Shown: piece by piece, positions 43,912-62,961 of the stretch
Numbering within the stretch: position 1 is the first letter of the stretch
How the letters are laid out: the number at the start of each line of letters is the position of its first letter
Assembly: GCA_001899855.1 (NCBI GenBank)
Contig: MKWR01000004.1
Coordinates: forward strand, 186,001 to 250,000
Source of the DNA: Lysobacterales bacterium 63-13
GTDB taxonomy: Bacteria; Pseudomonadota; Gammaproteobacteria; Xanthomonadales; Rhodanobacteraceae
Length of the DNA stretch: 64,000 bases
Reading direction: 5' to 3'
The notes under the pieces: generated by a model
What the model was told of the DNA's origin: nothing
What the model saw: the letters and a program-made list of their open reading frames with translations, nothing else
Databases searched by the model: none
Made by a program: the position numbers and the translations under genes

Positions 43912-46359
43912 ATGCGCCAGTTCTTGCTTGCTGCGATCGTGGCGATTGCCGCGAGCACGTCGTTACACGCCGAAGAATGGGCGCTGGATGTTTCCTGGCG
44001 CACGCCCGCCGACCTGGCGCGCATCGCACCGCACTTCCAGCACCTGAAAGTCGATCGCGTGCTGCACACGGCCAGCCTGATTGCCGATGACGCGCAGTTG
44101 GTCCTGCTTGACGAACTCGGTGTCGAGTACCGCATCGACATGGTCACCACGGCGAACATGCGCCAGTTCTACGCCGAGGCGTTCAGTGATACACGCAACG
44201 GCATTCCGGCCTATCCCTGCTATCGCACGGTCGAGGAAACCTACCAGACGATGGACGACCTTGCCGCCGCCCATCCGACGCTGGCGCGGGTGATCGATAT
44301 CGGTCCCACCTGGCAGCGCACGCAGAACGCCAGCCAGGGTTATGCGATGCGCGTCTTGCGCATCGGCAATTCCGCCACCGACTCCAGCATCCCCGACAAG
44401 CCGAACATGGTCATCACCAATTCGATCCATGCGCGCGAATACGCCCCGGCCGAAGTCAGCACGCATTTCGCCGAATGGTTGCTGGACAACTACGGCAGCG
44501 ATGCCGAGGCCACCTGGCTGGTCGATCACCAGAACTTCCACCTGATCCTGCAGGCCAATCCGGACGGTCGCAAGAAAGCCGAGACCGGGCTTTCCTGGCG
44601 CAAGAACACCGACACGGTCGCGGCAAGCTGCGGCAACACCTCGGGCATCGATCTCAATCGCAATTTCCCGTTCCATTGGGGCATCGTGCCCAACAATGGC
44701 GGCTCCAGCGGTTCGATCTGCAGCGAGACCTTTCGCGGACCGGCGCGCATGTCCGAGCCGGAAACCGACAATCTGGTGCGCTACGTTGCCGGCACCTGCG
44801 GCAGTGATGGCGTGTGCAGCGGCGGCGTGCTGCCCGATCGACGTGCCGGGCCGATGAACCCGTCGACGGTCGCTGGCGATGGCGGCGCGGCCGCACCCGA
44901 TGACTATGCCGGCATGTTCCTCGACCTGCACAGCTATGCGGAGCTGGTCTTGTGGTCGTGGGGCGACACGCCGAACGCGGCACCGAACGGGCCAGCCCTG
45001 CGCACCCTCGGCCGACGCATGGCCTGGTTCAACCAGTACTCGCCGGAACAGTCCGATACGCTCTATCCGACCGACGGCACCACGGACGATACGATGTACG
45101 GCTTGCTCGGCGCCCCGGCTTACACCTTCGAGCTGGACCAGGCATTCTTTGAATCGTGTTCGATGCTGGCCAGCAAGACCATCCCGGACAACCTGGCTGC
45201 CCTGCGCTATGCGGCGCGCAACCTGCATGCACCGTATCGCTTGCCGGGCGGCCCCGATGTGACCGCCATCAGTGCGGCTCCGGATCTTGTCGCGGCCGGG
45301 TCGCCCGTGCGCCTGAGCGCGCGCATCGATGACACGCAATTCAACGACGTCAATGGTGCCGAACCCGACCAGAACATCGTCTCCGCGGCTGCTTATCTGG
45401 ATGGCCTGCCCTGGGAAGGCGCACTGTCGGTCGCCGCGCTTGCCGCCAGTGATGGCGCATTCGACAGCAAGGTGGAGAATGTCCACGCCGACATCCCGAC
45501 CAACGGCCTGGCCAGCGGCAAGCATCTGCTGTTCGTGCAGGGCACCGATGCCTCGAGCCAGGCAGGAAGTCCGAACGCGGTCTTCATCGATGTCGCCCAG
45601 GCCAGCGAGATCGCAAACTTGAGCGGAACGATCACCGCCTTGCACAATGGTGCGCCGCTGGCGACCAGCATCCAGGTGCGCAACCCGGTCAGCGGCGAGA
45701 GTCGCAGCACCCTCAGCGCCGCCGGCGATGGCAGCTATGCGCGGTCGATGCGCGCGGGCAGCGTCGATATCCATGTCGATGCGCCGCCGGGATACATGGC
45801 CGAGGAACTTGCCGGCGTGACCTTGACGGGCGGCGCTTCCATGCTGCGCAATTTCGCCTTGCTCAGCATCTGCACCCTGTTTGCCGACGATGTCGAAGCC
45901 GGGAGCAATGGCTGGACCGCGGAAACGCCGTGGGTGCGGAACACGACCACCAGCGGCAATGCCAGTTTCGTCTGGGCCACGCCCGGTTATGGCAACAACG
46001 CCAGTCGCAGCCTGACCCGCGCGTTCGATTTCAGCGGATTTTCCGGCAGCGTGTTGCGCTTCGATGATCGCTGCGACACCGAGGCCGGCTACGATTTCGG
46101 CAATGTCGAGATTTCGGTCAATGGCGGCAGTTGGATCTCGCTCGGGCAATGCTCCGGCCGCACGACATGGCAAGCCAATCGCATTGTCCTGCCGGCTTCG
46201 ACCGACAATGTCGCCGACGTTCGCCTGCGCTTTCGCCTGAGCAGCGATGGCAGCGTCACCCGCAGCGGCTGGGCCATAGACAACATCGTGGTGGAGTCCG
46301 GCGGCGCCGAATGCCGCGCCAGTCAGCTCGACGTGATCTTTGCCGACGGCTTCGAGTAG
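43912..46359 (+). CDS. Secreted M14 zinc carboxypeptidase with C-terminal tail motif
   Basis: Exported peptidase of 815 residues with signal peptide (MRQFLLAAIV to LHA). The M14 domain (about 115-440) has Zn ligands HAREY (H-x2-E), LDLHSYAE, and a catalytic Glu in YTFELDQAF, with specificity segment GIDLNRNFP. Then a low-complexity region, an Ig-like segment and a jelly-roll domain (LFADDVEAGSNGW to the end). The protein finishes in LDVIFADGFE, a tail shared in form with two other secreted proteins of this window. ATG 43912 gives the best signal peptide. Confidence 0.9.
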   Translation: MRQFLLAAIVAIAASTSLHAEEWALDVSWRTPADLARIAPHFQHLKVDRVLHTASLIADDAQLVLLDELGVEYRIDMVTTANMRQFYAEAFSDTRNGIPAYPCYRTVEETYQTMDDLAAAHPTLARVIDIGPTWQRTQNASQGYAMRVLRIGNSATDSSIPDKPNMVITNSIHAREYAPAEVSTHFAEWLLDNYGSDAEATWLVDHQNFHLILQANPDGRKKAETGLSWRKNTDTVAASCGNTSGIDLNRNFPFHWGIVPNNGGSSGSICSETFRGPARMSEPETDNLVRYVAGTCGSDGVCSGGVLPDRRAGPMNPSTVAGDGGAAAPDDYAGMFLDLHSYAELVLWSWGDTPNAAPNGPALRTLGRRMAWFNQYSPEQSDTLYPTDGTTDDTMYGLLGAPAYTFELDQAFFESCSMLASKTIPDNLAALRYAARNLHAPYRLPGGPDVTAISAAPDLVAAGSPVRLSARIDDTQFNDVNGAEPDQNIVSAAAYLDGLPWEGALSVAALAASDGAFDSKVENVHADIPTNGLASGKHLLFVQGTDASSQAGSPNAVFIDVAQASEIANLSGTITALHNGAPLATSIQVRNPVSGESRSTLSAAGDGSYARSMRAGSVDIHVDAPPGYMAEELAGVTLTGGASMLRNFALLSICTLFADDVEAGSNGWTAETPWVRNTTTSGNASFVWATPGYGNNASRSLTRAFDFSGFSGSVLRFDDRCDTEAGYDFGNVEISVNGGSWISLGQCSGRTTWQANRIVLPASTDNVADVRLRFRLSSDGSVTRSGWAIDNIVVESGGAECRASQLDVIFADGFE

Positions 46360-46516
46360 GTCGAGCTCAGCCGCGGCGGAGGCGCATCGATGGCTTCGCC
46401 ATGGATGCGTTCGCGCGGACGGCGCGGGTGGTCACTCGAAGCGATGCAACTCGGCAGCGGGATTATCCGCGCCCGGGGTGATGACTCATCGGCAATTCGC
46501 GGATGAGGTTTGCGCG

Positions 46517-46768
46517 TCAGGCGCGCTTGGCGGTGCCCTGTTGCTCGCGGAAGCGCTGCAATGAGTCACGCAAGGCGTCACTGCGATCGCGCATCAACTT
46601 CAACTTGGCCCGTGCCGTGATGATGCGCAGCTTGAACTCCTCGCTTTGCGTGCGCTCCTCGGCCGGCCGCGGCGCGGGCGCTTTCGCAAGCGCGGCTGGC
46701 GCAGGCTTGGGCTGCTTGACCTGGCGCAGCGCGCTTTCGAATTCTTCAGCGTCGAATTTTACCGGCAT
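46517..46768 (-). CDS. Small hypothetical protein with predicted coiled coil
   Basis: Protein of 83 residues, no family recognised. Middle Ala/Pro/Lys-rich stretch (KQPKPAPAALAKAPAPRPAEE), then a charged helix (RIITARAKLKLMRDRSDALRDSLQRFREQQ). It has no signal peptide or membrane segment. Convergent with the carboxypeptidase gene. Composition and open frame support a gene, but not strongly. Confidence 0.5.
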   Translation of the reverse strand: MPVKFDAEEFESALRQVKQPKPAPAALAKAPAPRPAEERTQSEEFKLRIITARAKLKLMRDRSDALRDSLQRFREQQGTAKRA

Positions 46769-47126
46769 GGGCAGATCCTCGGATACGCAAACTGTGTTCG
46801 GTCATCGGGCCGGCGAGCACACGGCTTGCCGATGCCCCGTCACGGAAAGGTTGCATTGACGGTCGCGATGACGGCCGTGCAGGCAAAACGACCCGCACGA
46901 TGCAGGCGCAATGTGCCGCAGGAACGTCGATGATATTGTGATCCGGGCCACGGGATCGGATGCCGCGCCGGCACAATCGGACTGACGGTCGGCTTGTCCG
47001 GCCAGGCGGCGAATCGCAACCGCGACGGCCGCCGCCGCGCGACCCTTGGTGGCGTTTCGACGCACTCCGTCGTGGCCGGCAGCGGTGCTGCAACCGACGC
47101 ACTTCGCCGGGTTGTCCCGGGACATC
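46769..47126. other. Intergenic stretch without recognised feature
   Basis: About 360 bases between the small hypothetical gene (whose promoter should lie here, as it reads to the left) and the end of the indolepyruvate oxidoreductase gene. I see no RNA gene, repeat or strong hairpin. Short frames are overlapped by others in all phases. Confidence 0.4.
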
Positions 47127-50100
47127 TCAGGCCGCGCTGCGCGCCGCCGACGGGTTGCGCCAGGCATGCAGCAGGTCGTCCTGGCGCTTCATGGCATCGG
47201 CGTGGAAACGTTCCTTGACGTGCCCGTAGCCGCGGATGTGTTCGGGCACCGAGGCGATGTCGATGGCCAGCGCGTGGTTGTCGTTGTCGAGCCCGGCCAG
47301 CAGTTCATCAATCTGCTTGAAGTAATCGACGATGAGCTGGCGTTCCAGCTTGCGCTCGGCGCTGTAGCCGAAGATGTCGAAGACGCCGCCACGCAGCCCC
47401 TTCAACTTGCCCAGCACGCGGAATGCCTTGAACATCCACGGACCGTATTCGGCCTTGCGCAGGTGACCGTCCGCATCCTTCTTCGCCAGCAGTGGCGGAG
47501 CAAGATGGAAGTGGATCTTGTAGTCGCCTTCAAAGGTCTCGCGGATCTTCTTCTCGAAATCGCCGCTGGTGTAGAGGCGGGCAACTTCGTATTCGTCCTT
47601 GTAGGCCATCAGCTTGAACGCGTAGCGGGCGACCGCCTGGGTCAGGCTGGTGAAGGCGGGGGTCTTCTGCTGCTCGACGCGACGCACCTTGTCGATCAGC
47701 GCCTGGTATTTCCTCGCATAGCCGGCATTCTGGTAGCCGGTGAGGAATTCGATGCGTCGCGCAATCTGCTCATCGAGCGAGCTGCTGATGGCGAGATCAT
47801 CGAGGGCCTCGGCGCCGCGCGGCAGCGACACGGCATCGATCTTCGCGGCGGGCTTCGCCGGATGCATGGGCAGGTTGAGCGGAATCGCTCCGGAAGGCAG
47901 CCTGGCCGGGCCAACGCCCGCGGCCCGGCGCACGGCGGTGAGGTCGTGCGCGCCCATGCGACCCCAGTTGAACGCGGTCTTGTTCATCTCGATGGCGGCA
48001 CCGTTGAGTTCGATCGCACGCATCAGCGAATCGAGACTGACCGGAACCCAGCCCTTCTGCCAGGCATAGCCGAGCATGAACAGGTTGGCCGCAATGGTGT
48101 CACCGAGCAGGGCGGTGCCGAGCTGGGTCGCATCGATCAGTTCGGGCTCGTCGCCTTCCAGTGCGGTGCGCACGGCATCGATGATCTGCTGCGCCGGGAA
48201 CTGCATGTCCGGTTTGGTGGTGAAGGTGCCGGGCATCGCCTCGTAGGTGTTGAGGACGACGTTGGAGCGATTGGCGCGGATCTTCGACAGCGCCCAGTAG
48301 TCGTTGACCACGACCATGTCGCAGCCAAGCACCAGGTCGGCTTCGCCAGCGGCAATGCGCACGGCGTGGATGTCGGCGGGATCCTTGGCAATGCGCAGGT
48401 GGCAGGTGACCGCGCCACCTTTCTGCGCAAGTCCGGTCTGGTCGAGCACGGTGCTGCCCTTGCCTTCCAGATGCGCGGCCATGCCGATCAGCGCGCCAAT
48501 GGTGACCACGCCGGTGCCGCCGATGCCGGTGACGAGGATGTTCCACGGCCGCTCGAAATCCGAGGCAAACATCGGCATTGGCAGGCTGCTGAAATCAACT
48601 GCGCCGGAAGCGGCCTTGCTGACCTTCTTCAAGCTGCCACCGTGCACGGTGACGAAACTCGGGCAGAAACCCTTCACGCAGGAATAATCCTTGTTGCAGC
48701 CGGATTGGTCGATCTCGCGCTTGCGCCCGTATTCGGTCGCCTTCGGCAACACCGAGACGCAGAAGGATTTCTCGCCGCAATCGCCGCAGCCCTCGCAGGC
48801 CAGGGTGTTGATGAAGACGCGCTTCTTCGGATCCTCCAGCTTGCCGCGCTTGCGCCGGCGCCGCTTTTCGGTGGCGCAGGTCTGGTCGTAGATCAGCACC
48901 GAGGTGCCGGGGATCTCGCGCATGCGCTTCTGCACGGCATCGAGTTCGTCGCGGTGGATGAATTCGACGCCGGCCGGGAAGATCTCGGGCTTCGACCATT
49001 TCCCGATGTCATCGGAGACGACGATGATCGTCTGCACGCCCTCGGCGCGCATCTGATGGGCGATGTCGGGCACGGTCAGGGTGCCGTCGACCGGCTGGCC
49101 GCCGGTCATCGCCACGGCATCGTTGTAGAGGATCTTGTAGGTGATGTTGACCTTGGCCGCGATCGCCTGGCGGATCGCCAGCGATCCGGAATGGAAATAG
49201 GTGCCGTCGCCGAGGTTCTGGAATACGTGTTTGGTTTCGGTGAAGGGCGCCTGGCCGCACCAGGTCGCGCCTTCGCCGCCCATGTGCGAAAACGTGTCGG
49301 TGCGCCGATCCATCCAGGTGACCATGTAATGGCAACCGATGCCGCCGTGCGCACGCGAGCCTTCCGGCACAGCGGTGGAGGTGTTGTGCGGGCAGCCCGA
49401 GCAGTAGTGCGCGGCGCGCGGGAAATTCGCGCGTGGCAGGGTCAGCTCCTGTTCCTTGGCCTCGATCCAGGCCACGCGCGAGCGGATCGCCTCGCTGCTG
49501 AAAAAGCGTGCCAGTCGCCTGGCGATGACCAGGGCGATCATTGCCGGGGTCAGCTCGTTGGTGCTTGGCAGCACCCAGTTGCCGTCCTCGTCGTACTTGC
49601 CGACCACGCTCGGGCGCGTTGTCCAGTTGTACATGTATTCCTTCATCTGCGATTCGATGAAGGAACGCTTCTCCTCGACCACGATGACATCTTCAAGGCC
49701 ATCGGCGAACTCGCGGATGCCGATGGGTTCAAGCGGCCAGGTCATGCCGATCTTGTAGACGCGGATGCCGATCTCGCGCGCATCACTTGCGCTGATGCCG
49801 AGGTATTCCAGCGCCTGCAGCACGTCGAGGTAGCTCTTGCCGGTGGTGACGATGCCGAGTCGTGCTTTCGGCGAATCGAGGACGATGCGATCGATGCGAT
49901 TGGCGCGGGCGAAGGCGGTGGCCGCCTGCACGGCGTAGCGGTGCAGGCGCATTTCCTGGTTCAGCGGCGGATCGGGCCAGCGGATGTTGAGGCCGCCTTC
50001 GGGCAGCACGAAATCCTCGCCGGGCAGGAGGATGTCGAGCTGGTGCGGATTGACGTTGACCGAGGCCGAGGATTCGACGGTTTCGGCAATCGTCTTGAAG

Positions 50101-50723
50101 CCGACCCAGCGCCCGGTGAAGCGCGACATGGCCCAGCCGAGCAGGCCCATGTCGAGGATGTCCTGCACGCCGGCCGGATTGAGGATCGGCATCATCGCCG
50201 AGACGAATTCAAGTTCGGATCCGTGCGGCAAGGTCGACGAGCGGCAGGCATGGTCATCCGCCGCCAGCGCCAGCACGCCGCCGAACCTGGAGGTGCCGGC
50301 GGCATTGCCGTGCTTGAACACGTCGCCGCAGCGATCGACGCCCGGACCCTTGCCGTACCACATGGAAAACACGCCGTCGTACTTGGCGCCTTCGAACAGG
50401 TTGGTCTGCTGGGTGCCCCAGACCATGGTCGCGCCAAGATCCTCGTTGAGGCCCGGGGTGAACTCGATGTTCGAGGCCTTGAGGTGCTTCTTCGCCTTCC
50501 ACAGCTCGAGGTCGAAGCCGCCCAGCGGCGAGCCGCGGTAACCGGAAATGAAACCGGCGGTATTGATGCCGGCAGCACGATCGCGCATCTGCTGCATCAG
50601 CGGCAGGCGCACCAGGGCCTGCACGCCGGACAGGTAGATGCGACCTTCACGGCGCGTGTACTTGTGATCGAGCGTGTAGTCGGTGTCGAGGGCGGGCGAA
50701 AGCAGGCTGGCGGGGACGGACAT
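47127..50723 (-). CDS. Indolepyruvate ferredoxin oxidoreductase family protein (fused alpha-gamma)
   Basis: Large 2-oxoacid:ferredoxin oxidoreductase, 1198 residues. Order: N-terminal pyrimidine-binding domain, thiamine-diphosphate domain (GIGCHYMVTWM, TGGQPVDG), two [4Fe-4S] clusters (CEGCGDCG and CNKDYSC-KGFC), then a gamma-type domain (TGIGGTGVVTIGALIG). Converts aryl- or branched-chain 2-oxoacids to acyl-CoA, reducing ferredoxin, so it belongs to amino-acid catabolism. ATG 50723 lacks a good ribosome site, but an upstream TACAAT is 38 bases away. The opposite strand has a 3.9-kb open frame that is an artefact. Confidence 0.9.
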   Translation of the reverse strand: MSVPASLLSPALDTDYTLDHKYTRREGRIYLSGVQALVRLPLMQQMRDRAAGINTAGFISGYRGSPLGGFDLELWKAKKHLKASNIEFTPGLNEDLGATMVWGTQQTNLFEGAKYDGVFSMWYGKGPGVDRCGDVFKHGNAAGTSRFGGVLALAADDHACRSSTLPHGSELEFVSAMMPILNPAGVQDILDMGLLGWAMSRFTGRWVGFKTIAETVESSASVNVNPHQLDILLPGEDFVLPEGGLNIRWPDPPLNQEMRLHRYAVQAATAFARANRIDRIVLDSPKARLGIVTTGKSYLDVLQALEYLGISASDAREIGIRVYKIGMTWPLEPIGIREFADGLEDVIVVEEKRSFIESQMKEYMYNWTTRPSVVGKYDEDGNWVLPSTNELTPAMIALVIARRLARFFSSEAIRSRVAWIEAKEQELTLPRANFPRAAHYCSGCPHNTSTAVPEGSRAHGGIGCHYMVTWMDRRTDTFSHMGGEGATWCGQAPFTETKHVFQNLGDGTYFHSGSLAIRQAIAAKVNITYKILYNDAVAMTGGQPVDGTLTVPDIAHQMRAEGVQTIIVVSDDIGKWSKPEIFPAGVEFIHRDELDAVQKRMREIPGTSVLIYDQTCATEKRRRRKRGKLEDPKKRVFINTLACEGCGDCGEKSFCVSVLPKATEYGRKREIDQSGCNKDYSCVKGFCPSFVTVHGGSLKKVSKAASGAVDFSSLPMPMFASDFERPWNILVTGIGGTGVVTIGALIGMAAHLEGKGSTVLDQTGLAQKGGAVTCHLRIAKDPADIHAVRIAAGEADLVLGCDMVVVNDYWALSKIRANRSNVVLNTYEAMPGTFTTKPDMQFPAQQIIDAVRTALEGDEPELIDATQLGTALLGDTIAANLFMLGYAWQKGWVPVSLDSLMRAIELNGAAIEMNKTAFNWGRMGAHDLTAVRRAAGVGPARLPSGAIPLNLPMHPAKPAAKIDAVSLPRGAEALDDLAISSSLDEQIARRIEFLTGYQNAGYARKYQALIDKVRRVEQQKTPAFTSLTQAVARYAFKLMAYKDEYEVARLYTSGDFEKKIRETFEGDYKIHFHLAPPLLAKKDADGHLRKAEYGPWMFKAFRVLGKLKGLRGGVFDIFGYSAERKLERQLIVDYFKQIDELLAGLDNDNHALAIDIASVPEHIRGYGHVKERFHADAMKRQDDLLHAWRNPSAARSAA

Positions 50724-50760
50724 GACGTATACCGGGGAATGCAGCGTGGACAAGAGCGGA

Positions 50761-50766
50761 ATTGTA
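50761..50766 (-). promoter_or_regulatory. Possible -10 element of the indolepyruvate oxidoreductase gene
   Basis: TACAAT (in GTTACAATTCC) on the minus strand, 38 bases before the start codon. No -35 found. Confidence 0.35.
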
Positions 50767-50892
50767 ACAGCGCCAAGGCCGCGCGCCGTCCTGGCCGGCG
50801 AATCCGCGCACGCCAATGGTGCCGTGCCAGGCCATGCGCGGGGCAGCCCATCCGTTCCGGATCAGCGGACGTTATTCCCCAACGCGCCGGCC

Positions 50893-50910
50893 CCGGCCTG
50901 ATCAGGCCGG
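50893..50910 (-). terminator. Hairpin downstream of the sterol-desaturase gene
   Basis: Perfect 18-base palindrome CCGGCCTGATCAGGCCGG, 17 bases past the stop codon. A U-rich tail is absent, so it might halt RNA polymerase only with help or protect the 3' end. Confidence 0.4.
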
Positions 50911-50926
50911 CGTGGCTTGGGCTGGC

Positions 50927-52135
50927 TCAGGGCAGCGGCTTGGCGCGAAACGGAAACATCTGCTGGGCGACAAAGCCGTCGGGCATGTAGTCGCCGACCA
51001 CGCCGTACTGGTTGGGCAGCTTGCGATCGGCCTTGACCGCGGTGCCGAACAGGTGGTCGATGAAGGCGTAGTGCGCCGCGTAGTTGCGATCGATCGCCTC
51101 GTCATCCGAGGCGTGGTGCCAATGGTGGAAATCCGGGGTCACGATCAGGTATTTCAGCGGTCCCCAATGCAGGCCGACGTTGGCGTGATTGAGCACGGCC
51201 TGGAAGCCGACGACGATGATGTAGGCATTGATCACCGCCTCGCTGAAACCGATCACGAACAGCGGCGCGACCACCAGCACGCGGGTGACGATCACTTCGA
51301 GAATGTGCTGGCGCGAACCGGCCAGCCAGTCCATCGTCTTCGTGCTGTGGTGGACGGAATGGAATTTCCACAGGAACGGGATCTCGTGATAGGCGCGATG
51401 CGTCCAGTACTGGGCGAGATCGGCGACGAGAATGCACAGCAGCAGCTGCGGCAGGAACCAGATGCGCTGCACGGCAAGCTGGAAATCGTGCTGGACCATC
51501 CAGCCGAAACCGTGGTGGATGACGAAATTCACGGTCAGCAGGATCAGGCCGACGAGGAAGTGGTTGACCGCGAAATGCTTGAGATCGGTCTGCCATTCGC
51601 GGCGGAAGATCGGCTGGCCGCGGCGCAGTGGCAGGATCTTCTCGATGGCGACGAAGATCAGGGTCGAGCCGAGCAGGTCGAGGATGAACCAGTCGAGGCC
51701 GATGTAGGGCGTATTGTCGGGGAAATTCCCCACCGGCACGCGCGAGCCGCCCAGCGCCACGGCAATGATGACAATGGCAAAGGCAAGCAGGTTGAGGTTG
51801 CGCCGCACGCCGAGCACAAGATTGGCCAGGGACAGCGCGCCGGCAACCAGCAAGGCCACAAACATGGCCTGGCGCAGGATGTCGACCGAATACTGGTGGC
51901 GCAATTCCGGCGTGGTCAGGTATTCCGGAAAGTGGAAGGCGAGCACGCCGAGCAGGCAGAGGAAGCCGAGGCTCAGGGCGACGATGGTTGCGATCAGGCC
52001 ATGCCCGAACTTGAGTTCACCACTGCTGCCCAGCAGCCCCGAGGTTTCATCGACGGCGGCACGAACTACTTGTGCGGGTTTCCTCGCGACGGCGCCGAGC
52101 GTGTAGGGGATGCGGCTGATCGATCGTTTTGACAT
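50927..52135 (-). CDS. Sterol desaturase / fatty acid hydroxylase family protein
   Basis: Membrane di-iron protein of 402 residues. The His boxes are HRAYHE, HSVHHS and HHWHHASD, with at least six helices in the first 230 residues. Substrate unknown: bacterial members act on sterols, carotenoids, ether lipids or lipid A. The N-terminal segment (residues 1-40) looks soluble. ATG 52135 is used. It is 64 bases downstream of the LtaS-like stop, on the same strand, so both may contribute to envelope lipid modification. Confidence 0.85.
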   Translation of the reverse strand: MSKRSISRIPYTLGAVARKPAQVVRAAVDETSGLLGSSGELKFGHGLIATIVALSLGFLCLLGVLAFHFPEYLTTPELRHQYSVDILRQAMFVALLVAGALSLANLVLGVRRNLNLLAFAIVIIAVALGGSRVPVGNFPDNTPYIGLDWFILDLLGSTLIFVAIEKILPLRRGQPIFRREWQTDLKHFAVNHFLVGLILLTVNFVIHHGFGWMVQHDFQLAVQRIWFLPQLLLCILVADLAQYWTHRAYHEIPFLWKFHSVHHSTKTMDWLAGSRQHILEVIVTRVLVVAPLFVIGFSEAVINAYIIVVGFQAVLNHANVGLHWGPLKYLIVTPDFHHWHHASDDEAIDRNYAAHYAFIDHLFGTAVKADRKLPNQYGVVGDYMPDGFVAQQMFPFRAKPLP

Positions 52136-52199
52136 GACGCCGTGGGTCCGGGTTGGCGCCGGTTCGCGCGAGCGCATGTTATCCGCAATCCTGCCCCGG

Positions 52200-53957: not shown

Positions 53958-54324
53958 TGGATCTCGGCTCACCGGCGCTGCCATCATTGATCACGATCAC
54001 TTGCCGGCCGAGGCCATGCGGCGACAAAACGAAAGGAGCAGACCTTGTTGCAGACGTTGGTCATGCCTCGGAACCTGCGTGGCGGAAGTCCAGCGGACTG
54101 CAAACGCGCCCGCCAGTGCGCATTCTCGCCGCTTGCGGGCCTGCGCAACCACTGCAGGTCGATGAAGCGCAGGAAACCCGTCCTCGCGTATCAACGCTTG
54201 ATCCGCTTCGCGGTTGCAAAGCCATTCGCCTCGATCTTCCGCCGGGCAGGCTCCTTGCGCATTTCTTCCCGCTTGATCTACGCTGCGCCGCTCGGTTCGG
54301 GTGATCCTACAGGGGAATGGGCGA
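53958..54324. other. Divergent region between LtaS-like gene and nupC
   Basis: About 365 bases that must carry both promoters. It contains TTGATCACGATCAC (53987-54000), one base off an FNR box, but its position does not fit either start. Nothing else recognised. Confidence 0.4.
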
Positions 54325-55641: not shown

Positions 55642-55681
55642 TCCTCGCGGATCCGCTCGAAAAGCCAAGCCACAGAATTGG

Positions 55682-57472
55682 TCATCGTCCCGACGAAGTG
55701 GACTTTGGCGCAAAGCGGGTGCCATTCGGATCTGATCCGATCCCTCCAGGACGCGTCCCGTCGATGCGCTCGTCGCCGGTGCCGTCGAATCCATCCGCGA
55801 ACAGCAGGTCGCGGGCGATGGTGACAATCATGAAAGCGTCGTCGCTGGCAGCGGCTGTATCGCTGACGCGCACACCGATCCTGATTCGATCGGGTTGCGC
55901 GGTGCTGCTGGAATAGACCGCGCTGGCAGTGCTGCCGACGGCGTCATCGAAGCTGCCGTCGCCATCGAGATCCCAGGCGTAGGCCATGGCGCTGCTCTCG
56001 GGGTCGATACTGTTTGCTGCCGAGAACCCGATCGTGCGTGGTGACCCGTCGGCGGTCGAGCTGGCGTCCAGGGTAATGGCCGCCGAAGGCGACAAGTTGC
56101 GTTGGGCCGGGTTGGCATCCCAGGAAACGCGACCGACGCGACCATTGTTGATGTCGACAAAAAACAGGTCGCCGCCCGGCCCGGTGGTCAGATCGACGAC
56201 GCCAAGATTGCCTTGGCCAAACAATTCGGCACTGCTGTCGTTGATCGGATCTGGAATGCCGTCGTGATCGGTATCCTTGATCACGCGAATGCTGTTCTGG
56301 ATATAGTCGGCAAAAAACACGGCGTTGCGGTACGCGGGCGGCCACACGGTTCCGGAATAGAACACGATTCCGGAAATCGCCTCGTTGCTGGTGTGCTGGT
56401 AGGCGTGGAACGGTGCCGATGCCGGCGTGCGTCCGCCACTGTTGCCGTTTTCGTACAAAAGCGTACACAGTGGACGTGTGCTGTAGTCGACGACATGCAC
56501 GCGGTTCTCGAAGCATGGCCAGCCGAAATTGCGCAGGCTCGATCCTCCTGCCGAATCGGGGATCACGTTGATCTCTTCCCAGGTTCGCCAGCCGACGTCG
56601 CCAAGCCAGATTTCGGAAGTTCCAGGTCGCATCGCGAACCGGTACGGATTGCGCAGGCCATAGGCGAGGATGCGGCGCGCATTGGCGGATGCGCCGGCGA
56701 CCTGGGCCAAAGGATTTCCGGGTGCGCCCTCGCCGCTCTGCGGGTCGACGCGCGCGATTGTGCCATTGAGCCAGATCTGGCCCGTGTATTGATCCTCAAC
56801 CTCAAGGCCCTGTGCACGCAAGGCACCGCCCTGGTTTGTCGGCGAGCGTTGATCGGGCCAGGTCGGGTTGCCGAATTGTCCCCAGTCGGCGTTGACAAAG
56901 GCCGCGCCGTCGCCGCCGCCGACATACAGATAGCCATCGGCGCCAAAGCGCACGCTGCCAATCGAATGACTCGGATATTGCTGATACCAGTCCTCGATCA
57001 GCACGTGCTCGTCAGTCGCGATGTTGCCGGCCAGGGTCAAACGCGAAAGCCGGCCTGAAATCACGCAACCGGCAAATGCGGCGAGCGGATCGGGACAGCC
57101 GGTTGCCGGCCAACGGGGCGGAGAATCGCCGAACAGGCCGCCGTTGAACGAGTACAGAACGTAGAGGTAAGGTCGTTCGGGAAAACGCGGATCGAGTTCG
57201 AGGCCGAGCAAGCCGCGATCCTGGTATTGGTGGATGCTGCCGCCAAGATTTGCGATCTGCTCGGGTGCCGCATCGAGCAGGTTCCGATACATCCAGATCG
57301 CGCCGGTCTTCTCGGCGATGAAGATCCGGCCGTCGTGGGCGAAACGGATCTGGGTCGGCTGATCACGCTGGTTGAATGGAATGGTGTGGCGGAAATTCGC
57401 TGTCGGCCAGGACTGCGCGGCGACGGTCACTGGCGCGGCGACAAGAAGCAGAAGCCAGTGTCGCCACTTCAT
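55682..57472 (-). CDS. PQQ-dependent sugar dehydrogenase-like secreted protein
   Basis: Exported six-bladed propeller protein of 596 residues (signal peptide MKWRHWLLLL to VAAQ). Resembles soluble glucose/aldose dehydrogenases and HHIP: RGLLGLELDPRF, VGGGDGAAF, YGLRNPYRFAM and WLGDVGWRTWEEIN. A PKD-like repeat (SIDPESSAMAYAWDLDGDG) follows, and then LLFADGFDG near residue 563. Unlike its paralogue it does not stop there but continues for 32 residues (TGDERIDGTRP and on). ATG 57472 is set by the signal peptide and a GGAGG. Substrate unknown. Confidence 0.87.
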   Translation of the reverse strand: MKWRHWLLLLVAAPVTVAAQSWPTANFRHTIPFNQRDQPTQIRFAHDGRIFIAEKTGAIWMYRNLLDAAPEQIANLGGSIHQYQDRGLLGLELDPRFPERPYLYVLYSFNGGLFGDSPPRWPATGCPDPLAAFAGCVISGRLSRLTLAGNIATDEHVLIEDWYQQYPSHSIGSVRFGADGYLYVGGGDGAAFVNADWGQFGNPTWPDQRSPTNQGGALRAQGLEVEDQYTGQIWLNGTIARVDPQSGEGAPGNPLAQVAGASANARRILAYGLRNPYRFAMRPGTSEIWLGDVGWRTWEEINVIPDSAGGSSLRNFGWPCFENRVHVVDYSTRPLCTLLYENGNSGGRTPASAPFHAYQHTSNEAISGIVFYSGTVWPPAYRNAVFFADYIQNSIRVIKDTDHDGIPDPINDSSAELFGQGNLGVVDLTTGPGGDLFFVDINNGRVGRVSWDANPAQRNLSPSAAITLDASSTADGSPRTIGFSAANSIDPESSAMAYAWDLDGDGSFDDAVGSTASAVYSSSTAQPDRIRIGVRVSDTAAASDDAFMIVTIARDLLFADGFDGTGDERIDGTRPGGIGSDPNGTRFAPKSTSSGR

Positions 57473-57485
57473 TTCCGCATCCTCC

Positions 57486-58343
57486 CTACTCGCCGAGTTC
57501 CTCGCGCATGAACTCGGGCAGGGACAGCGCGGCCTTGTGGATCTCGGCGTTGTAGTAGCGCGTGGGGAAACCCTTGGTCTGGGCGCCGCGCTCGCGGAAA
57601 TCGGCAAGGTCGGCACCCTTGCGCGCCAGCGTCGCGCTCCACCAGCCGGTCGGATAACACGGTTGCGGGAAGGTCAGCGTGCGCACGGCCTGGAAGCCGG
57701 CGGTGCGCATTGCCGAGCGCATCGACTTGATCAGGCCGAGATGGGCCAGCGGCGATTCGCTTTGCTGGACGAAGATGCCACCGCTGCGCAGGGCCTTGAA
57801 GCAGCTTGAATAGAACGCCGCATTGAACAGGCCTTCGGCCGGACCGACCGGGTCGGTCGAATCGACGATGACCACATCGACCGATTCCGCCTCGCAATCG
57901 GCCATGTACTTGATGCCGTCATCGAACAGCAGTTGCGCACGCGGATCGTTGTTGGCTTCGCACAGCTCGGGGAAGTACTGCTCGGCCAGGCGCGTCACGC
58001 GCTCGTCGATCTCGACCTGCACCGCCGATTCGACCACGTCGTGGCGCAACACTTCGCGCAACGTTCCGCAATCGCCACCGCCGATGATGACGACGCGCTT
58101 GGCACGCGGATGCGTGAACAAGGCCGGGTGCGAAATCATCTCGTGATAGAAGAAGTTGTCGCGGCTGGTCAGCATCATGCAGCCATCGATGACCATGAGC
58201 TTGCCCCAGTCGGTCGAATCGTGGATCTCGATCGACTGGAACGGGGTCTGCTCGGCGTGCAGGCGCGCGCGGGTGCGAAAGCCGATGGATGAGCCCGATG
58301 ATTCGTGGGCTTCGGTGAACCAGCTTTGCTCGGACGTGGACAT
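57486..58343 (-). CDS. speE: Spermidine synthase
   Basis: Transfers an aminopropyl group from decarboxylated SAM to putrescine. Protein of 285 residues with GKLMVIDGCMMLT, VIIGGGDCGTLREVL for nucleotide binding, VDVVIVDSTDPVGPAEGLF (catalytic Asp), and late PCYPTGWW. ATG 58343 has AAGGAA 7 bases before it. The PQQ-type gene upstream in the genome reads the same way but starts 13 bases downstream of this stop. It is divergent from speA. Confidence 0.95.
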   Translation of the reverse strand: MSTSEQSWFTEAHESSGSSIGFRTRARLHAEQTPFQSIEIHDSTDWGKLMVIDGCMMLTSRDNFFYHEMISHPALFTHPRAKRVVIIGGGDCGTLREVLRHDVVESAVQVEIDERVTRLAEQYFPELCEANNDPRAQLLFDDGIKYMADCEAESVDVVIVDSTDPVGPAEGLFNAAFYSSCFKALRSGGIFVQQSESPLAHLGLIKSMRSAMRTAGFQAVRTLTFPQPCYPTGWWSATLARKGADLADFRERGAQTKGFPTRYYNAEIHKAALSLPEFMREELGE

Positions 58344-58404
58344 GCGGACTTCCTTGAAATCGACGGAGATTGCCTCGGCACAAGGCGTTGGCATGAAGGC
58401 AGCG

Positions 58405-58410
58405 ATTGTA
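58405..58410 (-). promoter_or_regulatory. Possible -10 of speE
   Basis: TACAAT in GGTACAATCG on the minus strand, 62 bases upstream of the start. Same core as the speA, trpG and indolepyruvate oxidoreductase candidates. Confidence 0.35.
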
Positions 58411-58555
58411 CCGGCTCGAACCCCGTCGCGGCAGCCGCCGGCCTCGGTGCAGGCGCGGTCCGCGGCTCTGGATGCGGGTTTCATTCAGCATTTGCCAGCG
58501 GTCACCGCGCAGTCAGGCGCAGGCGAGCGGATTCCTCAGGAATGAAACGGATGGT

Positions 58556-58561
58556 TACAAT
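58556..58561 (+). promoter_or_regulatory. Possible -10 of speA
   Basis: TACAAT in GGTTACAATG, predicted start near 58568, giving a leader of roughly 90 bases. No matching -35. Confidence 0.35.
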
Positions 58562-58659
58562 GCCCGCCCCGAAGGTTCCCGCGGCATCAAGGCTCCCGAC
58601 CGACGGATCAGATGCGTCCAAGCCTGCCGCTGCGACGTCGAACTCTTCCGGAGGACACC

Positions 58660-60549
58660 GTGAGCACATCCTGGACGACAGACGACGCCCGTCACACCTA
58701 CGCAATCGCGAACTGGGGCGAGGGTTATTTCGATGTGGGCGCGGATGGCGCCATCCTGGTCAAGCCGCGCGCCGCCGACGGCCCGGCGCTGAACTTGCCG
58801 GGGATTGTCGCCGATGCGCGCGCACGCGGCTCGCGCCTGCCCTTGCTGGTGCGCTTCACCGACATCCTCAATGATCGCCGCGCACGCCTGCAGGCCGCGT
58901 TCGCCAAGGCGATGGGTGATTGGGATTATGCCGGCGGCTATACCGCGATCTATCCGATCAAGGTCAACCAGCAGAAGAACGTGGCCGGCGAACTGGCTGC
59001 CGCGTGTGGTGAAGGTTTTGGTCTTGAAGCCGGCTCGAAGCCGGAGCTGATGGCCGTGCTGGCGCTGGCCCGCCGCGGCAGCGTGGTCATCTGCAATGGC
59101 TACAAGGATCGCGAATACATCCGCCTCGCCCTGATCGGGCGCAAGCTCGGCCTGGATGTCTTCATCGTCATCGAGAAACCTTCGGAACTGCGCTACGTGA
59201 TCGAGGAGGCAAAGGCGCTGGGCGTCGAGCCGCTGCTCGGCGTGCGCATGCGCCTGAAGAGCCTCGGCGCGGGCAAGTGGCAGAACTCCGGTGGCGACAA
59301 GGCCAAGTTCGGCCTGACCCCGCGCCAGTTGCTGACCCTGATCGAACAGCTCAAGTCGGCCGAACTTTCGCACACGCTCAAGCTGCTGCATTTCCACATG
59401 GGTTCGCAGATGTCGAACGTGCGCGACATCGCCCGCGGCATGCGCGAGGCCGTGCGTTATTTCGTCGAACTCTCGCAACTGGGCCTGCCGATCCGCTACA
59501 TGGATGTCGGCGGCGGACTCGGTGTCGATTACGAAGGCACGCGTTCGCGTTCGGAGTGTTCGATCAACTACGGCCTCGATCAATATGCATCGAGCGTGGT
59601 CGGCGCGCTGGCCGAAGCCTGCGCGGAAAACAAGCTGGCGCCGCCGCACGTGCTGACCGAATCAGGTCGTGCGCTGACCGCCCATCATGCCGTGCTCGTC
59701 GTCAACGTCAGCGAGATCGAGGAATCGCCGCGCGGCGCGGTGCCCGCCATGCGCGAGGACGAACCGGCCGTGCTGCGCCGCCTGCGCGAGGCACATGCGG
59801 AGATCGACGCGCGGCCGCCCACCGAGCTCTATCACGAGGCGCAATACCATCTTGCCGAAGGCCAGTCGCTGTATGCATTGGGCCAGTTGTCGCTGGCCGA
59901 TCGCGCCCAGCTCGATGATCTCTACTACGCCATCGTCAACGCCGTGCGCGCGCGCCTGAAACCCGATGAGCGTTCGCATCGCCAGGTGTTTGATGAGCTC
60001 AACGAGACCCTGGTCGACAAGTACTTCGTCAACTTCTCGGTGTTCGAGTCGGTGCCGGACATCTGGGCCATCGACCAGGTGTTTCCGATCGTGCCGATCG
60101 CCGGACTTGATCGCAGGCCGGATCGGCGCGGCGTGATTGCCGACCTGACCTGCGATTCGGATGGCCGCATCGATCATTACGTCGATGCCGATGGCGTCGA
60201 TGTCAGCCTGCCGCTGCACGCGCCGGCAAGAGGCGAAACCTACCTGCTTGGTTTGTTCATGGTTGGCGCGTATCAGGAAACCCTGGGCGACATCCACAAC
60301 CTGTTCGGCGACACCGATGCGGTGAGCGTGAAGATCGATGGCGATAGTTACGCAATCAGTCATCAGCGCCGCGGTGATACCACCGACCTGATGCTCGATT
60401 ACGTCGGTTATGACCTGGGTGCCCTGCGTGCCGAGTACCGCGACAAGATTGCCGCGGTCGGCATTGTCGGCGACGAGGCGAAAGCGCTGGAAGCCAGCCT
60501 GGAAGCCGGATTGACGGCCTACACCTATCTTGCGGAGACGGCGGAATGA
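58660..60549 (+). CDS. speA: Biosynthetic arginine decarboxylase
   Basis: PLP enzyme that makes agmatine from arginine, the first step to putrescine. 629 residues, alanine-racemase-fold type. The PLP Lys is in YPIKVNQQKNV, with LLHFHMGSQMSN, YMDVGGGLGVDYEGT, VLTESGRALTAHHAV and IWAIDQVFPIVPI. GTG 58660 follows CCGGAGG by 6 bases; a longer frame from 58612 lacks this. The enzymes for agmatine to putrescine are not in the window. It overlaps the next gene by ATGA. Confidence 0.96.
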   Translation: MSTSWTTDDARHTYAIANWGEGYFDVGADGAILVKPRAADGPALNLPGIVADARARGSRLPLLVRFTDILNDRRARLQAAFAKAMGDWDYAGGYTAIYPIKVNQQKNVAGELAAACGEGFGLEAGSKPELMAVLALARRGSVVICNGYKDREYIRLALIGRKLGLDVFIVIEKPSELRYVIEEAKALGVEPLLGVRMRLKSLGAGKWQNSGGDKAKFGLTPRQLLTLIEQLKSAELSHTLKLLHFHMGSQMSNVRDIARGMREAVRYFVELSQLGLPIRYMDVGGGLGVDYEGTRSRSECSINYGLDQYASSVVGALAEACAENKLAPPHVLTESGRALTAHHAVLVVNVSEIEESPRGAVPAMREDEPAVLRRLREAHAEIDARPPTELYHEAQYHLAEGQSLYALGQLSLADRAQLDDLYYAIVNAVRARLKPDERSHRQVFDELNETLVDKYFVNFSVFESVPDIWAIDQVFPIVPIAGLDRRPDRRGVIADLTCDSDGRIDHYVDADGVDVSLPLHAPARGETYLLGLFMVGAYQETLGDIHNLFGDTDAVSVKIDGDSYAISHQRRGDTTDLMLDYVGYDLGALRAEYRDKIAAVGIVGDEAKALEASLEAGLTAYTYLAETAE

Positions 60550-61415
60550 GCGACATCAAGGCGGGATTTGTCGGCCTCGGTGCCATGGGCCAGCCAATGG
60601 CCGGGCACCTGGCACGTGCCGGATTGCTTGCTTCGATATGGACGCGCACGCCGGCCAATACCCGTGCCATTGCCGCGGAACTGGGCCTGCATGAACCGGC
60701 CTCGCTGGCCGAGCTGGCCACGCGCTGCAATGTCATCGCGCTGTGCGTGCCGGCCGATGCCGACGTGCTCGCCGATGTCGCGGTGATCGCCGCCAACGCC
60801 CAGGCAGGCACGATCGTCATTGATCATTCCACGGTGTCCTCGGTGACCGCACGCGAGGCACGCGAATGCATGCTCCGGAACGGCGGCGAGTTCATCGATG
60901 CGCCGGTATCCGGTGGTGTCGAAGGCGCGCGCAACGGCAAGCTCTCGGTCATGGTCGGTGGCGAAGCCGCGGTGCTCGAACGCGTGCGCCCGGTGCTCGA
61001 ATGCTATGCGGCGCGGATCAACCACATGGGCGGCATTGGTGCAGGACAGAACACCAAGGCGGTCAACCAGGTGCTGGTCGCCGGCATTGCCCAGGGTGTC
61101 TGCGAAGGCCTTGCCCTCGGCGAGGCCCTCGGGCTCGATGCCGACACGCTGATCTCGACCCTGCTCACCGGCGCGGCCGGCAACTGGTTCCTCGACAAGC
61201 GCGGGGCGAGCATGTTGCGCGACGAGTTCAAGGTCGGCTTCAAGCTTGCCCTGTTGCACAAGGATCTGAAGATCGTCCGCGAGCTTGCCCGCGATGCCGG
61301 AACCGATCGCAGCGTGATCGAGAAATCCCTGGCCGACTACGCCGTGCTGATGGCGCAGGGCCATGGCGATGAAGACATCTCGGCGTTGATCCGGCTCAAG
61401 CGAGGTGCGCGCTGA
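60546..61415 (+). CDS. NAD(P)-dependent beta-hydroxyacid dehydrogenase (HIBADH-like)
   Basis: Cytosolic oxidoreductase of 289 residues. Rossmann start GFVGLGAMGQPMAGHL, substrate loop DAPVSGGVEGARNGKL, catalytic Lys in GAGQNTKAVNQ. This family includes tartronate semialdehyde, hydroxyisobutyrate and succinic semialdehyde reductases, so the substrate is open. It is translationally coupled to speA. A link to agmatine or GABA breakdown is possible but unproven. Confidence 0.88.
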   Translation: MSDIKAGFVGLGAMGQPMAGHLARAGLLASIWTRTPANTRAIAAELGLHEPASLAELATRCNVIALCVPADADVLADVAVIAANAQAGTIVIDHSTVSSVTAREARECMLRNGGEFIDAPVSGGVEGARNGKLSVMVGGEAAVLERVRPVLECYAARINHMGGIGAGQNTKAVNQVLVAGIAQGVCEGLALGEALGLDADTLISTLLTGAAGNWFLDKRGASMLRDEFKVGFKLALLHKDLKIVRELARDAGTDRSVIEKSLADYAVLMAQGHGDEDISALIRLKRGAR

Positions 61416-61656
61416 GGCGACTTTTTCATGCCTTGTTCGCACGCAGTCGGCGGCCTTGCGGGCGACGTGGCTGCGTGCCGAGCCAACGCCTGTGACGGGT
61501 TGACCAGATTGTCGCGGTAGACTTCTGGCAAGGTGGCGTCGGCGTGGGCGGGCCCGCAACGGCTTCACCAGCATGCATGGCTGCATCGCGCACATCGAGC
61601 CCACGGATAGTCGACCGGTCCCAGCCTGATCCAACACCCCTGATGGAGTTCTGCGT

Positions 61657-62961
61657 ATGCGTCCCTTCGGCAACACTCTCGGCCTTCTCCTTGCCATGGC
61701 GTCGGCATCGGCCTTGGCGCAAACCGCGCCCAGCGACCTCACCCTTGTCACCGTCGCCAACGTGACATCACCGGTCGCGATTCGCGCACCCGCCGACGGC
61801 AGCGGTCGAATTTTCATCGTCGGCCAGAACGGCGCGATCCGCATCGTCAAGAATGGCACGCTGCTGCCGACTCCGTTCCTCACCGTGCCGGTGACTTTCA
61901 GTGGCGAAAGCGGATTGCTCGGACTCGCCTTCCACCCGAATTTCGGCAAGCCGGCGCTCCCGCACAACAACGAATTCTACGTCGCCTTCAATCGACCAAG
62001 CAGTGATCCCAAACTCGGCTCGTCGCCGGATGTCGTCCTCTCCCGCTACACGGTTTCCGCCAACCCGGACATTGCCAACACCACGGCAACCCTGGTCCTG
62101 CGCGTTCCCGACATCGCCTCGAACCACAATGGCGGCGACATCCATTTCGGCCCGGATGGCTATCTGTACATGTCCACCGGCGACGGCGGCGTGCAGGGCG
62201 ATCCCAACGGTTTCGCCATGTGCCTGTGGAAGAAAGCGGCAGACAACACGCCGGGCAATTGCGGCAGTGGCACGCCCACCTATTTCCTGATGGGCAAGGT
62301 CCTGCGTCTCGACGTCGACAATCCGGCTGCCACGGCGAGCGCCGACATGTGCGGCTCGAACGGCATCAACCCGCCGCAGTATTCGATTCCCGCCGACAAT
62401 CCGCATGTCGGCACGAGCAATACCTGCGACGAGATCTGGCTGCACGGATTCCGCAATCCATGGCGCACGAGCTTTGATCGCGTGACCGGCGATTTCTGGA
62501 TCGGTGATGTCGGCCAGGGCTCGCGCGAGGAAATCGACTTTCGCGCCCGCACTTCAACCGAGCCGACCTTCTACGGCTGGCGCTGCCTCGAAGGAAGTGC
62601 CACCTACAACAGCCAGAACATCTGTGCAGTGCCGCCGGCCAACGTCTTGCCGGTGATGGAATACACGCATGCCAACGGACGCTGTGCGATCACCGGTGGC
62701 TTCCGTTTCCGTGGTCCGATCGCCGCGCTGAACGGAATGTATATCTTTGCCGAAGCCTGCACGAGCGAAATCTATTTCGGCAAGCCGGCCGCCGGCAACA
62801 CCTGGACCTACACGACCTGGCGTGACGATGCAAACGGTTATGGCACCTATTCGGGCTTTGGCGAGGACGAGTTCGGCAACCTCTATGTCGCCAACAACCA
62901 GGATGGCGTCGTCTCGAAGTTCGTCTCCGATCACATTTTCGACAACGGCTTCGACAACTAG
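61657..62961 (+). CDS. PQQ-dependent sugar dehydrogenase-like secreted protein with C-terminal tail
   Basis: Exported propeller protein of 434 residues, signal peptide MRPFGNTLGL to ALAQ. Related to aldose sugar dehydrogenase (GdhB/YliI) and HHIP: SGLLGLAFHPNF, ASNHNGGDIHFGPDGYLYMSTGDGG with the likely catalytic His, HGFRNPWRTSFD, IGDVGQGSREEID, and GGFRFRG. It has many Cys that may pair in disulfides. It ends in DHIFDNGFDN, a form of the tail shared with two other proteins here. ATG 61657 fits the signal peptide. Confidence 0.87.
   Translation: MRPFGNTLGLLLAMASASALAQTAPSDLTLVTVANVTSPVAIRAPADGSGRIFIVGQNGAIRIVKNGTLLPTPFLTVPVTFSGESGLLGLAFHPNFGKPALPHNNEFYVAFNRPSSDPKLGSSPDVVLSRYTVSANPDIANTTATLVLRVPDIASNHNGGDIHFGPDGYLYMSTGDGGVQGDPNGFAMCLWKKAADNTPGNCGSGTPTYFLMGKVLRLDVDNPAATASADMCGSNGINPPQYSIPADNPHVGTSNTCDEIWLHGFRNPWRTSFDRVTGDFWIGDVGQGSREEIDFRARTSTEPTFYGWRCLEGSATYNSQNICAVPPANVLPVMEYTHANGRCAITGGFRFRGPIAALNGMYIFAEACTSEIYFGKPAAGNTWTYTTWRDDANGYGTYSGFGEDEFGNLYVANNQDGVVSKFVSDHIFDNGFDN

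Follow-up and report, generated by a model that had tools for sequence, protein, structure and literature searches.

Why should three secreted proteins encoded on one bacterial contig carry the same short peptide at or close to their C-termini? The question is raised by a 64,000-nucleotide stretch of Lysobacterales bacterium 63-13 (contig MKWR01000004.1, positions 186,001 to 250,000; hereafter the window), in which an M14 zinc carboxypeptidase and two GSDH-type propeller proteins share a tail of the form IFADGFE. The first-pass annotation took this tail for a sorting or anchoring tag of the bacterial order, served by a processing enzyme. We find that the tail is real, order-wide and distributed far beyond these three proteins, and that it is tied to a secretion system and not to a known sortase-like enzyme. 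The system is the second type II secretion system (T2SS) of the order, which has a PDZ-type GspC and which we call T2SS-A. We propose that the tail serves as a short linear address by which proteins are recruited to T2SS-A, with a probability of about 0.58; that some functional link joins the two is a safer claim, which we regard as likely. The three genes and their motifs are located in the window as follows.

43912..46359, plus strand: M14 zinc carboxypeptidase gene (start codon at 43912 assigned by eye), encoding a signal peptide, an InhA-like MAM jelly-roll (LFADDVEAG...) and the tail
46330..46356, plus strand: C-terminal tail DVIFADGFE of the M14 protein, abutting the stop codon at 46357-46359
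55682..57472, minus strand: second GSDH-type propeller gene, with a signal peptide (start assigned by eye)
55781..55807, minus strand: tail motif LLFADGFDG of the second GSDH protein, with 32 residues further to the stop codon
61657..62961, plus strand: GSDH-type propeller gene (434 amino acids), encoding a signal peptide and the tail
62929..62958, plus strand: tail DHIFDNGFDN of the 434-amino acid GSDH protein, abutting the stop codon

The M14 protein (PF00246, 2.2e-46; PF20773, 2.3e-06) terminates in ...QLDVIFADGFE-stop (motif at 46336-46356), and the 434-amino acid propeller in ...SDHIFDNGFDN-stop (motif at 62935-62958). All three motifs are located where the first-pass annotation had placed them. 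Two are strictly C-terminal, and the minus-strand one, ARDLLFADGFDG, is followed by 32 extra residues. The signal peptides that had been claimed for all three proteins are clear by eye (MRQFLLAAIVAIAASTSLHA, MKWRHWLLLLVAAPVTVAA, and MRPFGNTLGLLLAMASASALA). Because the tail is terminal in the closest relatives of the second GSDH protein (two genomes of its own genus; IFADGFDPPRR-stop and IFADGFEPAPR-stop), the window copy seems to carry a late extension (55682-55780, minus strand). We attribute the extension to a recent stop loss, a frameshift or an assembly error, the relatives stopping 4 residues past the tail. This protein also has a weak PKD match, under the curated cut-off. An AlphaFold model covering the window GSDH protein and five relatives (mean predicted local distance difference test score of 37) was uninformative on tail exposure. 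Within the M14 protein, the jelly-roll segment LFADDVEAG itself resembles the tail.

Across the 3.75 Mb source genome, the pattern F-x-[DN]-G-F-[DE] has 50 matches and the same pattern read backwards has 1, an excess far beyond chance. Forty-one of the 50 end no more than 11 residues from a stop codon. Two of these were set aside (L045, apparently antisense, and L049, an 81-amino acid frame whose upstream part is odd), and the other 39 are C-terminal tails with the consensus D-x-[IL]-F-x-[DN]-G-F-[DE]. Isoleucine or leucine precedes the first phenylalanine in 39/39 and aspartate stands at position -3 in 33/39, neither being required by the search pattern. Thirteen of the 39 end exactly at GF[DE], and the residues after the core, 0 to 11 in number, are rich in P, A, and T. 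The tail lacks a hydrophobic or basic end and is thus unlike PEP-CTERM, GlyGly-CTERM, and LPXTG signals in build, as had been proposed. Copies away from the C-terminus occur near the mature N-terminus (L073) and between domains (L042 and L053). At L049 (C29:296622), the frame before the tail LFADGFDDTPTSNP is unusual and rich in arginine, and the gene is probably frameshifted.

The 39 carriers have no common fold, comprising subtilase, M14, reprolysin-like, GH44, endonuclease I, FG-GAP, beta-helix, LRR, GSDH, and other proteins, and their mean column identity is 9%. They are secreted. A signal peptide without a further transmembrane helix was found in 19/22 tail genes as compared to 38/180 other genes (p 2e-9), as judged by a home-made rule, with a slightly broader motif, for genes callable in fetched stretches centred on tail genes; the 3 tail genes missed by the rule look by eye as if they encode signal peptides. 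A looser first version of the rule was dropped, as it flagged 24/43 open reading frames (ORFs) of the window. Carrier L065, probably the DUF1501 protein, has a Tat-like signal (MTHIDRRDFLKG), which suits the export of folded proteins. The motif could have proved no more frequent at C-termini than elsewhere, or equally frequent in cytosolic proteins; it was instead found to be C-terminal and its carriers secreted, so that the idea of a shared tag of secreted proteins holds.

The tail is not confined to the source genome. (Genomes, loci, families, and genera are cited below by our handles G, L, f, and g.) In the family of the source genome (the window family, 197 genomes), counts of the core motif range from 0 to 200 per genome. 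The source genus g1 and genera g14, g16, and g26 are rich, g8 is mixed and the other genera are low; one incomplete g26 genome has 2 matches only. Other families of the order are also tail-rich by a stricter pattern in which isoleucine is fixed before the first phenylalanine, and the tail is present in Dokdonella, Rudaea, Pseudofulvimonas, and Marinicella. Some rich genomes, such as those of Marinicella, encode it with quite different, T- and A-ending codons, and its persistence under different codon use indicates that selection acts on the peptide. Outside the order, 199 genomes of the class gave 41 matches in 35 genomes, at most 2 per genome, as compared to 18 for the backwards pattern. Tails at a stop codon were found in at least 116 stretches of named genomes. 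The 80 stretches listed belong mostly to Dokdonella, Marinicella, Rudaea, Pseudofulvimonas, and metagenome-assembled genomes (MAGs) named Lysobacterales or just Proteobacteria; other names among these 80 are three Alcanivoracaceae MAGs, one Xanthomonas sp. MAG, and one Lacinutrix. The tag is therefore concentrated in this order, as first suggested, recurring across it and present at 0-2 matches per genome outside it.

The position of the tail is largely kept in these other genomes, where 48/56 matches are located no more than 15 residues from a stop codon (the sample was partly picked for tandem copies). Among the remaining 8 are copies close to the start of the mature protein (L106, L115, and L097) and probable chance matches, and tandem copies occur at either end of proteins (L105, L107, and L106). 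In GSDH relatives the tail stays terminal or nearly so, and this holds also for L240, in which a domain of ~75 residues has been inserted before the tail and about 20 residues follow it. Two GSDH relatives, L136 and L140, stop without a tail, though both come from tail-rich genomes. Looser forms, namely IFADDFE, IFATGFE, and IFFHDFE, also occur among these relatives, which makes the tail counts lower bounds.

Tandem copies and positions at either end are what would be expected of a multivalent binding peptide, and the tail might accordingly dock its carriers to an extracellular scaffold, a matrix or a vesicle receptor, with T2SS-A merely carrying the cargo. We consider this improbable. No candidate scaffold is prominent among the neighbours of tail genes, whose recurrent members are just sigma-factor-like ORFs, kinase-like ORFs, and genes in same-genus synteny, and the link to one of two T2SSs would be indirect. 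By eye, the sigma-like ORFs are of the extracytoplasmic function type (7/116 tail loci) and the kinase-like ORFs are of the serine/threonine type with repeats (6/116; L249, L195, and similar).

The protein at L106 (G206) has two tandem tails right behind its signal peptide, the second of which continues into a jelly-roll-like start (IFADGFETGDTSAW), and it may thereby connect the tail with the jelly-roll in evolution. This likeness, together with that of LFADDVEAG in the M14 protein, would suit a relic or structural cap, in which the first strand of a jelly-roll (I/L-F-x-D-x-F-E) persists at protein ends with no targeting role. We give this very little credence. Rich genomes have dozens to about 200 copies, the codons differ in Marinicella, the motif has changed set-wise to RFE in genus g35 (see below), and co-variation with a secretion system is unexpected for relics.

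That secretion system was identified through GspD, relatives of which were counted over a cut-off in a 40-genome panel, half tail-rich and half tail-poor. Every tail-rich genome has two (20/20), while the tail-poor genomes have one in 16/20 cases, two in G250, three in G010, and none in G197 and G214. A tree with 40 rows (the clade A copies of the 20 tail-rich genomes, 9 second copies of these genomes, and 11 rows from 9 tail-poor genomes, with one G010 copy and the remaining tail-poor panel genomes left out) divides into two deep clades (support 100/100). Clade A contains one GspD per tail-rich genome (20/20) and 2 of the 11 tail-poor rows, G025 and the second copy of G250, which have long branches. 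Clade B is the Xps-type GspD, which is found with a full operon in tail-rich and tail-poor genomes alike; this common T2SS of the order does not track the tail. None of the tail-poor panel genomes absent from the tree has a match to the GspC of T2SS-A (GspC-A). Accessory genes beside the common T2SS were also considered as partners of the tail, and none cleanly split tail-rich from tail-poor genomes.

The T2SS-A locus is short, with the order gspC-gspD-gspE(-gspF) (L291-L310) and ftsE/ftsX-like genes alongside in some genomes. In six loci inspected by eye, gspF is nearby in 3/6, followed by the ftsE/ftsX-like genes. In the source genome the locus is on another contig than the window (G000:C27, about 167,200-171,900), and encodes a GspC with a T2SSC domain (L291; PF11356, 5.9e-27), a GspD with N0 and secretin domains (PF21305, 4.2e-29; PF00263, 1.3e-50), and a GspE ATPase (PF00437, 1.4e-146). 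A PDZ domain in GspC is a variable feature of known T2SSs. GspC-A of Marinicella litoralis (L309), a species that has both T2SSs, matches PDZ_2 (31.9 bits) and PDZ (26.7 bits) above the curated cut-offs, and the source-genome GspC-A matches PDZ_6 at 26.5 bits, just below the cut-off of 27. A few genes downstream of gspD-A, L309 also encodes a protein whose last residues, IFENDFEILN, are a looser version of the tail.

A GspC-A profile of 17 rows, all from tail-rich genomes, was run on 197 + 250 genomes. In the window family, GspC-A occurs in 43/45 tail-rich genomes (14 matches or more) and in 2/152 tail-poor ones, or 16/152 if 14 divergent or partial matches in g25, g18, and g24 are counted. 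Genus g17 has up to 13 matches without GspC-A, and four of its members have 0 or 1 by the stricter pattern. Among 198 genomes of other families, GspC-A is present at about 1e-36 or better in 70/80 genomes with three or more tails, and in 30/118 with fewer than three, 22 of these 30 belonging to genus g35. In family f2, a close GspC-A orthologue occurs only in its two tail-rich genomes. The mixed genus g8 has GspC-A in 10/10 genomes with at least 14 matches as compared to 1/6 with 8 or fewer. Because tail-poor G008 and G032 nest within tail-rich g8 in clade B (94/83), the loss of tails seems to have accompanied that of T2SS-A in this genus. Of the ten choice_anch_Q proteins of G008 and G032, four could be read to the stop codon and have no tail; the other six run past the stretch.

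Several observations weigh against our proposal. The profile favours the tail-rich genomes from which it was built, and the threshold of 14 was picked after the counts were known. Divergent matches were excluded by genus, yet weak truncated ones in tail-rich G110, G114, and G183 were retained. T2SS-A also occurs where tails are few. There were 0 core matches in 271 kb of G025 (genus g25, divergent GspC-A), one dubious match in 73 kb of G202 (family f7), and 0 matches in 123 kb of G253; no convincing variant tails were found in f7, g25, or G253 in these small samples. Some f8 genomes have GspC-A with 0 or 1 tails. Conversely, a GspC-A match is missing from two tail-rich genomes of the window family (G037, 46 matches on 770 contigs; and G079, 45 matches on 680 contigs), which assembly fragmentation may explain, and from 10/80 tailed genomes elsewhere (including G297 with 41 matches, G349 with 33, G239 with 10, and f8 genomes with 3-6). 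Nor is the tail needed on every relative of a carrier, as the GSDH protein is found without it in tail-rich G324 and G204. As for the machinery, BLAST found no relatives of pseudopilins G-K, GspL or GspM near gspD-A in 20 stretches (20 kb each, one 6.8 kb). These components are present at the Xps-type locus, and T2SS-A may borrow the pseudopilins from that operon.

The co-occurrence statistics, moreover, are uncorrected for shared descent, and few gene families were profiled, so that another gene could fit equally. The association might then reflect shared ancestry, the true reader being another gene lost in the same lineages. Tail and T2SS-A differ concordantly inside g8, across the remainder of the window family, in f2, and in f9 (G214, with no GspD match), which speaks against this, and we think it unlikely, though somewhat less so than the docking peptide.

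Genus g35 (family f10), which has T2SS-A and almost no tails of the G form, at first looked like an exception. We read its choice_anch_Q proteins in five genomes (G205, G230, G236, G248, and G286; L311-L373), where 41/49 matches had a readable end. The G-form tail is found in 0/41. Instead, 32/41 end in [IVLM]F-x-x-R-F-[DEQG], the IFxDRFE form, which turns the exception into support. The remainder comprise one IFADDFE, four hydrophobic CTERM-like ends, and four with none of these, two of which have the R motif followed by a long extension. A one-residue change on many proteins at once is expected under a common reader and suggests one, though the 41 proteins all belong to one domain family. 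The other g35 genomes probably share the R form. No convincing specificity residues for the change from G to R were found in GspC, a further point on the unfavourable side.

The reader need not be a secretion system, and the annotation had expected a processing protease or transferase. The sole candidate tested was a C13 (legumain-like) peptidase cutting at [DN]-G-F, and it was rejected, as PF01650 does not follow the tail. The domain occurs in 12/13 tail-poor f1 panel genomes, is absent in tail-rich G198, G199, G201, G204, G229, and G324, and is found in 23/24 panel genomes of the window family whatever their tail count. The variable distance from core to stop codon, the tandem copies, and the copies near signal peptides are easier to reconcile with a motif that is bound than with one that is cleaved. 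What stands of the original idea is the shared tag on secreted proteins; what lacks support is the processing enzyme, T2SS-A tracking the tail instead.

An anchoring or sorting tag might still operate after export, if T2SS-A exports the proteins and a receptor or transferase then retains them at the surface, with or without cleavage. Several carriers point this way. NCBIfam assigns 7/39 to choice-of-anchor Q and 2/39 to choice-of-anchor J, with partial matches to rhombosortase-dependent (6/39) and myxosortase-dependent (3/39) M36 families. To judge by their names, these choice-of-anchor and sortase-dependent families would elsewhere bear a sorting signal where the tail stands here; among the 25 families listed of 32 matching, none by name models the tail. 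The choice-of-anchor Q domain is followed by the tail in most g35 proteins read and by a hydrophobic CTERM-like end in others (4/41), and the GlyGly-CTERM tag of Vibrio is itself reported to be tied to a T2SS (PMC13393428). The tail, however, has no hydrophobic stretch or basic end, and in the 13/39 that stop at GF[DE] no residues remain beyond the core to be cleaved away. Tandem, internal, and N-terminal copies are likewise awkward for an anchor, as is the failure of the C13 peptidase to follow the tail. We hold anchoring to be the foremost of the alternatives, if a rather doubtful one.

Under the recruitment proposal, tagged proteins would cross the inner membrane by Sec or Tat and fold in the periplasm with the tag displayed at an exposed terminus, in most cases the C-terminal one. 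The tag would then be bound in the periplasm by a component of T2SS-A, for which the best candidates are the GspC PDZ domain and the N domains of the GspD secretin, and the protein would be let into the secretin. The mode of binding could be strand addition to the PDZ domain or the GspD N domains, which is a guess. A classical PDZ ligand presents a free carboxylate in fixed register, and the tail differs in its core-to-stop distance of 0-11 residues and its tandem and N-terminal copies; these features argue against carboxylate-dependent PDZ binding and must be set with the evidence to the contrary above. From sequence comparisons such as these we infer that T2SS-A reads the tag, and which of its parts would do so.

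Such a mechanism has partial precedents. T2SS substrates are exported by Sec or Tat, fold in the periplasm, and are recruited with the participation of GspC and GspD (PMC12369372 and PMC7949064), the PDZ part of GspC being required for only some of them (PMC12369372 and PMC7949064). The Ig fold of VesB holds graftable, PDZ-dependent information (PMC12369372), flexible loops of Pel3 and PelI serve as signals (PMC7949064), and Xanthomonas XpsC is without a PDZ fold (PMC11981180). No conserved linear T2SS signal is reported to have been identified (PMC12369372, PMC7949064, and PMC11981180). The tail proteins resemble the PDZ-dependent substrates (VesB with EpsC of Vibrio cholerae; PelI and Pel3 with OutC and OutD) as folded proteins exported by Sec or Tat and recruited, as we propose, by GspC and GspD. 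They differ in that VesB, PelI, and Pel3 have structural signals and no common linear sequence in those accounts, whereas here unrelated proteins share a 9-residue linear motif. A second T2SS also recalls the Xcs system of Xanthomonas, which the long-branched second GspD of G250 in clade A probably represents. Unlike the T2SS-A of tail-rich genomes, G250 has a divergent GspC (4.9e-22) and no tail match.

PEP-CTERM and MYXO-CTERM tags include a transmembrane helix, and the type IX C-terminal domain, a signal for crossing the outer membrane in Bacteroidota, is folded and about 80 residues long. The tail is by comparison a bare linear motif, also found in tandem and at N-termini, and its carriers end 0-11 residues past a short core behind unrelated domains. 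It resembles PEP-CTERM/exosortase and MYXO-CTERM/myxosortase as a C-terminal tag on many proteins that is amenable to phylogenetic profiling (PMC1569441 and PMC11980579). It is also like GlyGly-CTERM/rhombosortase as a C-terminal tag on secreted hydrolases in genomes that tend to have T2SS core genes (PMC13393428). GlyGly-CTERM, the substrate of a rhomboid protease, combines a hydrophobic part with a basic end, both of which the tail lacks. No report of the tail was found in open-licence full-text literature, preprints and supplements being outside that scope.

In its fullest form, the proposal is of a transferable T2SS tag of 7-9 residues that could be carried by any protein folded in the periplasm, whether C-terminally, next to the signal peptide or as tandem copies. 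It would be read by the PDZ-type GspC or the GspD of one T2SS and not by those of the other T2SS of the cell, with receptor and tag co-evolving into lineage codes (GFE for most families and RFE for one genus). We judge the odds of this form to be even. The choice of cargo by T2SSs is an old open question. If the proposal is true, substrate lists would be readable directly from sequence, and receptor and tag could be dissected with peptides. Two T2SSs and two tag codes in one natural setting would provide a built-in control, and the tail would be a ready tag for the export of folded proteins. Even if the tail is an anchor tag, it would be a widespread C-terminal tag without a transmembrane helix.

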